Assembly: GCF_030323025.1 (NCBI RefSeq)
Contig: NZ_CP097329.1
Span: 155,001-219,000 of the forward strand
Reading direction: 5' to 3'
Length of the DNA stretch: 64,000 nt
Source: Pseudanabaena mucicola str. Chao 1806
Lineage (GTDB): Bacteria; Cyanobacteriota; Cyanobacteriia; Pseudanabaenales; Pseudanabaenaceae
Shown here: positions 3,596 to 50,741 of the stretch, one piece after another
Layout: every line of letters starts with the position of its first letter
Position numbering within the stretch: position 1 is the first letter of the stretch
The notes under the pieces: model-generated
Told to the model about the DNA's origin: nothing
Database searches by the model: none
What the model saw: the letters and a program-made list of their open reading frames with translations, nothing else
Program-made: the position numbers and the translations under genes

Positions 3596-3641
3596 AAGCA
3601 CAACTTAGCTATGCTTTCAAATCCAAGCTTGGCAGTAGATA

Positions 3642-3742
3642 AGTAGCTCAACTTAATTAAAACCCAAACCGAGAGTTTTGTTCCGCCCGCATAGCGGGCG
3701 GAACAAAACTCTCGGTTTTTAGTTTACTTATGTCTAGCTACT
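3642..3742. repeat. TA-flanked palindromic element, family 1, copy 1
   Basis: A 101-bp element with ends AGTAGCT and AGCTACT, flanked by TA on both sides (3640-3641 and 3743-3744). The core is a perfect hairpin with arms GTTCCGCCCGC and GCGGGCGGAAC, extended by AACCGAGAGTTTT and its complement. Three more copies lie at 13080, 26828 and 40175. It has no coding capacity. The structure is that of a MITE using a TA target, as for IS630/Tc1-mariner elements, and an IS630 remnant lies next to this copy. Confidence 0.9.
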
Positions 3743-3829
3743 TACAAAAAACTCTATAAAATATTCAACCAAGTGAAGTACTAGTTTGTGTCACCACTTT
3801 ATGAAGGTCATAAATTTTTAGAACAGGAA

Positions 3830-8477: not shown

Positions 8478-8514
8478 ATTCTGTTTGGTAATTAGGTTGT
8501 TGAAGTTAAATGTA

Positions 8515-8585
8515 GGATGGGTTAGCGATCGCGTAACCCATCACCTCTAATAGGATTTATGCGTATACGTTGCACTAACGCATCC
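8515..8585. repeat. Palindromic element, family 3 (GGATGGGTTAG ends), copy 1
   Basis: It begins GGATGGGTTAGCGATCGC and ends GCACTAACGCATCC, with TA on the left and TG on the right. The inner part GGGTTAGCGATCGCGTAACCC is a palindrome centred on a HIP1 site. The second copy is at 31635-31750. It lies in the urtA-urtB gap just before the urtB start. Confidence 0.8.
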
Positions 8586-12650: not shown

Positions 12651-12802
12651 ATATTAGCTTCAGAATTAATTGCATGTAAAACCTTGAGGAAAAGCTGATG
12701 ACACAGACTTACTTAGGACCCAGTGTGCAACAAAGAAACTGCAAAAAAACTCACAGCCAAGAATGTTAGAAAATAGAACTAACATCATTAGTGATAAGCT
12801 TC

Positions 12803-13323
12803 ATGTTCTCTATAAAATATTTTATCATTTCAGTATTTTGTAAAATCGAAAAACTACTCAAAGAAGCAATAAAGCCCATGATTCTAAGAGAAAAAGGTAT
12901 AGAGCCAGACCTCTCTGACAGCAAAGTAATAACAATGGAAATCGTTACTGAGTATCAAGAGATAAACATTGACATAGGGGTCTAGAAATATTTCCTTAAG
13001 CATTGGCAATCATGGTTTCTCTACTTAATCAATGTTGCATCGACAAGAAGCCAATCTATTACAGTGCAAAGCAATATTAAGTAGCTAGACATAAGTAAAC
13101 TAAAAACCGAGAATTTTGTTCCGCCCGCTACGCGGGCGGAACAAAATCTGGTTTTTAGTTTTAATTAAGTTGAGCTACTTACAAGAAAAACTTTTCGCTC
13201 ATTTGGGTGTTTTAGACAATGCCCTACATCTAATTGATGGCATACCAGTACCCAAGTGTTACCTCAGTCTTGCATCCCTATGTCGTAGCTTTTTAGATAT
13301 TGCAGACTATGTCTGTGCCTCTT
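12803..13323 (+). pseudogene. IS982-family transposase remnant interrupted by a hairpin element
   Basis: The frame reads FIISVFCKIEKLLKEAIK, then SDSKVITMEIVTEYQEI (typical of the IS982 N-terminus), a stop near 12984, then HWQSWF, and near 13060 (shifted frame) EANLLQCKAIL. A 100-bp palindromic element sits at 13080-13179. Directly after it the same frame resumes as QEKLFAHLGVLDNALHLIDG and LCRSFLDIADYVCAS, which match the middle of IS982 transposases. Deleting the element and one TA joins AIL to QEK in frame. The C-terminal third is missing. Confidence 0.85.
13080..13179. repeat. TA-flanked palindromic element, family 1, copy 2 (inside IS982 remnant)
   Basis: Same element as at 3642 but in the opposite orientation. 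The ends are AGTAGCT and AGCTACT, flanked by TA (13078-13079 and 13180-13181). The core hairpin is GTTCCGCCCGC with its complement. It interrupts a transposase frame that is restored when the element and one TA are removed, so its limits and the 2-bp target duplication are directly visible. Confidence 0.95.
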
Positions 13324-26620: not shown

Positions 26621-26653
26621 CCTTGTTAACATCCTGACATTTTTACTATATTA

Positions 26654-26742
26654 GGACTTACGCATTGGGCAGATGTGGTGCGGGCGAAGCCCGCACCACA
26701 TCTGCATCAATCCTAAGAAATTCGTTCGGTTTGCGTAAGTCC
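26654..26742. repeat. TA-flanked palindromic element, family 2, copy A
   Basis: An 89-bp element with terminal inverted repeats GGACTTACGCA and TGCGTAAGTCC, flanked by TA on both sides. The internal hairpin is GCAGATGTGGTGCGGGC - GAA - complement. The copy at 50417-50505 has the same length, and its stem bases have changed in pairs. Confidence 0.9.
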
Positions 26743-26827
26743 TATATATTTATTCCAGAGAAGCATATCGTGAAACTTTTACTGTGGATTATTTCTGTCA
26801 TTTATCTATTAATTCCTTTTCATAGTA

Positions 26828-26926
26828 AGTAGCTAGGCATAAATAAAATAAAAACCAAAAAGATTGTTCCGCCCGCGTAGCGGGCGGAACAATTTCTGGT
26901 TTTAGGTTTTAATATGCTCATCTACT
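26828..26926. repeat. TA-flanked palindromic element, family 1, copy 3
   Basis: A 99-bp copy with ends AGTAGCT and a slightly altered ATCTACT, flanked by TA (26826-26827 and 26927-26928). The core GTTCCGCCCGC/GCGGGCGGAAC is unchanged. The outer arms differ from the other copies. Confidence 0.88.
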
Positions 26927-27533
26927 TAGTACATATGTATATTCTTAAGACCTTAGTAGTTGAAGCGATCCAATAACTCAATATCCTTCAAATCCTCCTT
27001 ATCAAAAGCAGCACAATTTATCTAAAGCCTATAATAGTAAAGCTTTTATTCTTGATTTATAAAATTCGCAAGTTTAATCCGAACTGACATTAACCAAAGA
27101 AGTTCTGTGAGGATTGCACAATTTCATGAGGATTTAATTTGAAACGAAATGAGGTGTTGACAGTCAGAATGATATAAAGCAAGGCATACATATCTTATTT
27201 ATGAAGCGTATTGATACATATGCCTTACGACCTGTCTCATGGTTTATGGGGGAGCATAAACTAGAGACATTTCTAATATATGCAGGGATAAATAATGATA
27301 ATTAAGGCTTAAGTATTACCATTTATTTACGCACATTCCCTTACATATTTAAATTCAGATAGAGTAATGAAAAGATCATTATACATAGTTCATCGTTTCA
27401 TTTCTAGGTGATTATTTTTTATAAATATTTAAAAGTTTTTACTTCCACCTATTCCCGTATATCCAAAATAACATATTTTGTCGCAAAAACTTAGCCATCA
27501 ATATTTTTAGCCTATAATTCATGATCATGTTAT

Positions 27534-31591: not shown

Positions 31592-31634
31592 GCTGTCCTA
31601 ATTTTAAGAAGTGTATCTATTGAAACTAGACGTA

Positions 31635-31750
31635 GGATGGGTTAGCGATCGCGTAACCCATCACTTTTAACCACTTGATGCATCATATTTTGCCTACAAA
31701 TAGTTAGCCTTCCCGCTTAACTTGATGCGTCACGTTGCACTAACGCATCC
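31635..31750. repeat. TA-flanked palindromic element, family 3, copy 2
   Basis: It begins GGATGGGTTAGCGATCGC and ends GCACTAACGCATCC, with TA on both sides. It shares its first 28 or so bases and last 17 with the copy at 8515. The middle is longer (116 versus 71 bp). Confidence 0.85.
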
Positions 31751-40158: not shown

Positions 40159-40174
40159 AAAATTGGGTTAAGTA

Positions 40175-40274
40175 AGTAGCTAGACATAAGTAAACTAAAA
40201 ACCGAGAAGTTTGTTCCGCCCGCGTAGCGGGCGGAACAAACTCTCGTTTTGGGTTTTAATTAAGTTGAGCTACT
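40175..40274. repeat. TA-flanked palindromic element, family 1, copy 4 (operon leader)
   Basis: A 100-bp copy with ends AGTAGCT and AGCTACT, flanked by TA (40173-40174 and 40275-40276). The core hairpin is unchanged. It sits directly before the first gene of the glycan operon. Confidence 0.92.
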
Positions 40275-40469
40275 TAGAATAACTTAATCATGATCAAAAT
40301 CGGGCTGTATATACAAACCATTGACAAAACCTAAATATTCTTTTTTATCTCCCCAGCGAAATTGATCGTAAAAGCCACAAAGCTGGCACTGGACAGTTAA
40401 AACGTGAGTGAGTGAAAGCCACGTAGGGGCTTTTTTGAATACTGTAACCGATACCTAAACATTAGACTT

Positions 40470-42725: not shown

Positions 42726-42733
42726 GTTATTTA

Positions 42734-42834
42734 CAGCGCATTGCGCTCAAAACCAAACCAAGATATTTCCTGAAAGGATTGCTTCGCAATCCTTTCAGGA
42801 AATATCTTGTGGTTCGTTTGATAGAAAACTGCTG
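42734..42834. repeat. TA-flanked palindromic element, family 4, copy 1
   Basis: A 101-bp element running from CAGCGCATTGCGCTC to GAAAACTGCTG, flanked by TA on both sides. The central hairpin is AGATATTTCCTGAAAGGATT with complement around GCTTCGC. The copy at 50635-50735 has exactly the same length in the other orientation. Confidence 0.9.
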
Positions 42835-42889
42835 TAAAACCTCAATTTGCATTTTCGGTAATCCACTAGATGTAAGGATAAAATCATTA

Positions 42890-50296: not shown

Positions 50297-50416
50297 TAGC
50301 TAGATTTAAAACTTGAATATATAGATAAATAGTTATGTATATTTCTTGAATGAGTATTTTTGTCAAAAAAGTCTAGCAATCATGTATTGTAGCGATCCCT
50401 CAATCTAAATAATTTA

Positions 50417-50505
50417 GGACTTACGCATTGGGTAGATGTAGTGTGGGCGAAGCCCTCACTACATCTACCTCAATCCTAATAAATTCGTTCGATTTGCGTA
50501 AGTCC
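50417..50505. repeat. TA-flanked palindromic element, family 2, copy B
   Basis: 89 bp, the same length and ends as 26654-26742, flanked by TA. The stem is GTAGATGTAGTGTGGGC with near-complement. Relative to copy A, two stem positions have changed on both arms together, and one position is now mismatched. Confidence 0.9.
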
Positions 50506-50634
50506 TATAATTATTAGATTGATTTGCATTTTGCCTAGATCTGTAGTGAATATACAGCGAACTCTACAGGTGTCTTTAGCATTAAAAAAACTAATAGATG
50601 ATTGACAGGACTTTGTGTCGTCAATCATCTACTA

Positions 50635-50735
50635 CAGCAGTTTTCGATCAAATGAGCCATAAGATATTTCCTAAAAGGATTGCTTCGCAATCCTTTTAGG
50701 AAATATCTTGGTTTGGTTTTGAGCGCAAAGCGCTG
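50635..50735. repeat. TA-flanked palindromic element, family 4, copy 2
   Basis: A 101-bp copy inverted relative to 42734-42834, from CAGCAGTTTTC to GAGCGCAAAGCGCTG, flanked by TA. One stem pair reads A-T here where the other copy has G-C. It ends 6 bp from the stop codon of the SDR gene. Confidence 0.9.
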
Positions 50736-50741
50736 TAGATT

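Follow-up and report, generated by a model that had tools for sequence, protein, structure and literature searches.

We find that the hairpin at positions 13080–13179 of the window (the whole 64,000-nucleotide stretch of Pseudanabaena mucicola str. Chao 1806 DNA analysed here) is almost certainly an IS630-type MITE, probably moved in trans by a genus-resident IS630/Tc1-mariner-family transposase, and that one copy of it inserted into an IS982 transposase gene. The element (forward strand), whose ends were fixed by the TA duplication and multi-copy comparison, is exactly 100 bp long, nearly palindromic, and flanked by one copy of TA on the left (13078–13079) and one on the right (13180–13181). 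Counted with the TA, its left terminal inverted repeat occupies 13078–13107 (forward strand) and its right one 13152–13181 (reverse strand), the family form of the latter agreeing with the left repeat at 22/30 bases. A perfect inner hairpin (13113–13147) is made of a 16-bp stem (13113–13128 with 13132–13147) and the 3-bp loop TAC (13129–13131), and outer arms extend the repeat to the element ends. Short, without coding capacity and bounded by terminal inverted repeats, the element has the features of a non-autonomous MITE.

In the complete 4.53-Mb Pseudanabaena chromosome, a search for exact TAAGTAGCT...AGCTACTTA ends with 71–101 bp between them detected at least 99 copies, and a reversed control pattern detected 0. 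Copy length was 99–101 bp in 87 of the 90 copies examined with their flanks. The window itself holds a second copy (3640–3744, TA included, reverse strand), a third and more diverged one (26826–26928, forward strand) and a fourth (40173–40276, forward strand). The perfect inner stem with its outer arms, the predicted fold (−57.9 kcal/mol) and the 99 exact-ended copies vs. 0 in the control put the inverted repeat well outside what chance would produce.

The stability of that fold, about −58 kcal/mol, and the position of the element, which has a transporter ATPase gene on one side and an ndhD-like gene on the other, would suit a native functional hairpin (a terminator or an RNA element) of IS982 or of the intergenic region. 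Such an origin is improbable in the extreme, because the element occurs at about 100 unrelated locations, IS982 relatives are without it, and no Rfam family was matched at threshold. The Rfam search gave sub-threshold matches only; most were to microRNA models, a result that any perfect hairpin might produce.

Within the genus, matches were present in 23 of the 24 other genomes, and among the relatives sampled outside it only two weak cases were observed. Almost all named records that share the end sequence were from Pseudanabaena, copies were also found in three Pseudanabaena plasmid records, and viral contigs searched with the end sequence gave no match. In essence, the element family is limited to Pseudanabaena. 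In another species of the genus (G022), the predominant form is a related MITE subfamily that shares the outer AAGTAGCT ends but differs in its inner sequence (GGGTGCAATTAAATATAAAA...). Other interspersed repeat families are present in the window (26638–26746, 50401–50509, 42730–42838, 50633–50740, 8500–8550 and 31620–31670); at least some of them are palindromic and have different ends, e.g., TTTACAGCGC...GCTGTAAA.

Filled and empty sites were compared within the window's genome (G000) and with a sister genome of the same species (G058). The filled site G000:3865k differed from the empty site G000:2986k by exactly 100 bp of extra DNA and a 2-bp TA overlap, with flanks 98% and 96% identical. 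Two further filled sites of the window's genome (L011 and L112) gave the same result, 100 bp and a 2-bp TA, when compared with repeats of the sister genome. These matches are paralogous repeats (82–97% identity) and serve as empty sites; L011 and L112 were rejected as presence-absence polymorphisms between the two genomes for that reason. With a search pattern that did not require TA, T and A lay outside the repeat in 49 of the 50 sister-genome copies examined, and only a mild A+T preference was seen around the target TA.

These pairs bear on a different route, by which the hairpin would have spread by another single-strand/Y1 mechanism (REP/REPIN with RAYT, or IS200/IS605-type) and the TA would be coincidental. 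We consider this very improbable, since the filled/empty pairs contain a true 2-bp duplication, the same repeat is found at both element ends, these ends match an IS630-family element, and the element measures 100 bp as opposed to 20–40 bp for REP. To our knowledge, IS200/IS605-type transposition makes no 2-bp target duplication. Speaking for a REP-like origin are the strong, many-copy palindrome and the GTAG within the ends (AAGTAGCT), as GTAG-tagged REPs occur in cyanobacteria (PMC3733652).

The IS982 gene itself supports insertion of a MITE. With the joined flanks as the DNA query, the intact IS982 copy of this genome and IS982 copies of several related genomes were colinear through the insertion point of the window and were without the segment. 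A relative carrying the 100-bp segment as a native part of the gene was sought among the IS982 homologues and was not found. A second IS982 copy (G000:817k) holds its own element at a different TA, and its joined flanks are 96% identical to intact IS982 in an ungapped alignment. The preliminary description had proposed the exact ends, the TA target duplication and the mobility of the element: all three, the mobility as a past one, are confirmed by the empty sites at other copies together with the colinear IS982 homologues that are without the segment.

That description had also stated that the element cleanly splits an IS982 frame, and that removal of the element and one TA rejoins the halves. 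This proved correct to the base: when joined with one TA the flanks read MLHRQEANLLQCKAIL up to the junction and QEKLFAHLGVLDNALHLIDGIPVPKCYL... past it, with no stop over the junction. An intact homologue from the same genome (L045), which scores 241 bits against the NF033520 IS982 profile (cut-off 130), is 64% identical to the window copy by tblastn; it aligns to 12770–13018 and, with the segment removed, to 13041–13322 through the junction. The pseudogene, on the forward strand, thus comprises an N-terminal block (12770–13018), a short stretch read in a different frame that runs to the insertion site (13041–13079), and a block past the insertion (13182–13322). It bears further lesions, namely an in-frame TAG inside the N-terminal block (12983–12985), a frame change between the homologous blocks with an 8–10 bp deletion relative to relatives (about 13018–13041), and loss of the C-terminal half, homology stopping near 13322 at residue 154 of 307. 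The restored frame is therefore true locally, but it does not hold for the whole IS982 gene. We infer, rather than observe, the order of these lesions.

Through its DDE_3 matches, the genome yielded an element about 1,124–1,125 bp long with ends TAAGTAG(G/C)TAG(A/G)C..., which belongs to the IS630 family by NCBIfam NF033545 (DDE frame above the cut-off) and Pfam DDE_3. Copies with both frames open were found in three other genomes (G018, G012 and G021). Their frames, an HTH-bearing one of ~160 codons and a DDE one of 224 codons, overlap at an A8G3 run, which suggests that programmed frameshifting may occur in this element. The DDE frame is broken in the best copy of the window's genome, and the remaining matches there are fragments.

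The left end of the MITE agrees with the right end of the IS630-family element at 26/30 bases, and the right end of the MITE, in its family form, agrees with that same end at 20/30. Among 158,699 shuffled 30-mers starting with TA, none reached 24/30 in the left-end comparison, the best being 20. The IS630-family element of about 1.12 kb is, from these ends, the probable source of the MITE. The unequal closeness of the two ends indicates that the MITE did not arise just by internal deletion from the source copies seen. The type of enzyme, IS630/Tc1-mariner, had at first been guessed from the TA, and a TA duplication by itself would not prove the enzyme; the guess now has the support of an IS630-family element with matching ends, in addition to the TA target and its duplication. 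A probable IS630-family source with matching ends, present with both frames open in relatives and broken in the copies detected here, is what leads us to call the element a MITE.

The weaker match of the right end (20/30), and the presence in the genus of other IS630-type transposases ~35% identical to the identified one, leave some room for a different IS630-family transposase as the mobiliser, the common ends then reflecting older shared ancestry. We regard this as unlikely, because the left end matches this particular element at 26/30 whereas shuffled sequence does not exceed 20. Mobilisation in trans by the identified transposase is the simplest mechanism, and from the sequence comparisons we infer that this particular transposase was probably the mover. 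The noncoding element, with its IS630-like ends, would have been mobilised in trans: the transposase would cut at the element ends and join the element to a TA, and filling in of the 2-bp stagger would give a TA at either flank. A single event of this kind would have placed the window copy in the IS982 transposase gene.

The window insertion is also present in the sister genome, and it is therefore not recent. No clean presence/absence difference between the two genomes was detected among 13 sites of the sister genome and 20 sites of the window's genome. For three of these sites, L204 (sister genome) and L004 and L136 (window's genome), the opposite genome offered no usable match. The family thus appears quiet between the two genomes. 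It also looks stranded in the window's genome, since the detected source copies are broken and no insertion that differs from the sister was found. The mobility demonstrated for the family is thus a past one. One candidate empty site in the window's genome (L165_1950) was rejected, as the MITE there is split by another IS with a transposase-like frame. At L332 (G000:C1:1368000-1371300), positions 1463–2826, a MITE is split by an IS with a 391-codon transposase-like frame and is unbroken in the sister genome.

The copies may also take part in recombination. A locus of the sister genome (L200, G058:C78:18834-21795) has two MITE copies about 470 bp apart. Its counterpart in the window's genome (L158, G000:C1:2711157-2713647) has a single chimeric MITE, its left half corresponding to the first L200 copy and its right half to the second. 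Recombination between two copies appears, from this comparison, to have deleted the intervening ~470 bp of DNA in the window's strain. MITE copies also interrupt genes.

The hairpin loop was compared in 37 orthologous copies of the two genomes. Of these, 18 had the loop in reverse complement, 18 had it unchanged and 1 had another change (a tally made by hand from the pair table, with one 5-nt inversion and one TTA/TAA case counted in). The flanks of these pairs were mostly 98–100% identical, and element positions outside the loop rarely differed. Within the window's genome, copies that are identical apart from the loop form 11 groups, 6 of which contain more than one loop form, and both orientations were also observed in other genomes of the genus. 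Loop inversion is probably frequent enough to have randomised the loop orientation between these two genomes of the species. Some of the flips may be an assembly artefact, because the sister genome is apparently a metagenome-assembled genome (JADBWH records). Loop inversion is consistent with replication template switching; template-switch inversion of short spacers between inverted repeats has been described in yeast (PMC8604942), and that of short spacers inferred for RNA genes (PMC8794818). If true, this would make the MITE family a natural record of template switching during replication at the palindromes of a bacterium, and its ~100 natural copies would give a count of template-switch events over a nearly constant background.

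These data define the ends of a high-copy Pseudanabaena MITE family exactly and provide its target, its empty sites, its distribution and a probable parent transposase. No earlier description of the family was found in a literature search, in which subscription papers were mostly outside reach.

Known systems were compared by their descriptions. RUP (Repeat Unit of Pneumococcus) is a 107-bp element whose ends resemble those of the resident IS630-family element IS630-Spn1; movement in trans has been proposed for it, as has frequent insertion within or close to IS elements (PMC3049150). The Pseudanabaena family is like RUP with IS630-Spn1 in its IS630-type ends, the proposed mobilisation in trans and the insertion in an IS; unlike RUP, whose host is unrelated to Pseudanabaena, it is nearly palindromic throughout. 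Nezha was reportedly described, by Zhou et al. in 2008, in Anabaena and Nostoc and not in Pseudanabaena. It is likewise a cyanobacterial MITE for which a resident IS, ISNpu3-like, is the proposed mobiliser (PMC3049150). ISY100 has a TA target and duplication, imperfect 24-bp terminal repeats and an HTH + DDE transposase, and mini-transposons with 30 bp of each of its ends transpose as well as full-length ISY100 (PMC2170065). The TA target and TA duplication are common to ISY100, to IS630/Tc1-mariner elements and to the family described here, but ISY100 has one frame whereas the Pseudanabaena parent has two overlapping ones, and the MITE itself has no gene. The Pseudanabaena family appears to be new, and its kind, that of pneumococcal RUP, is well known.
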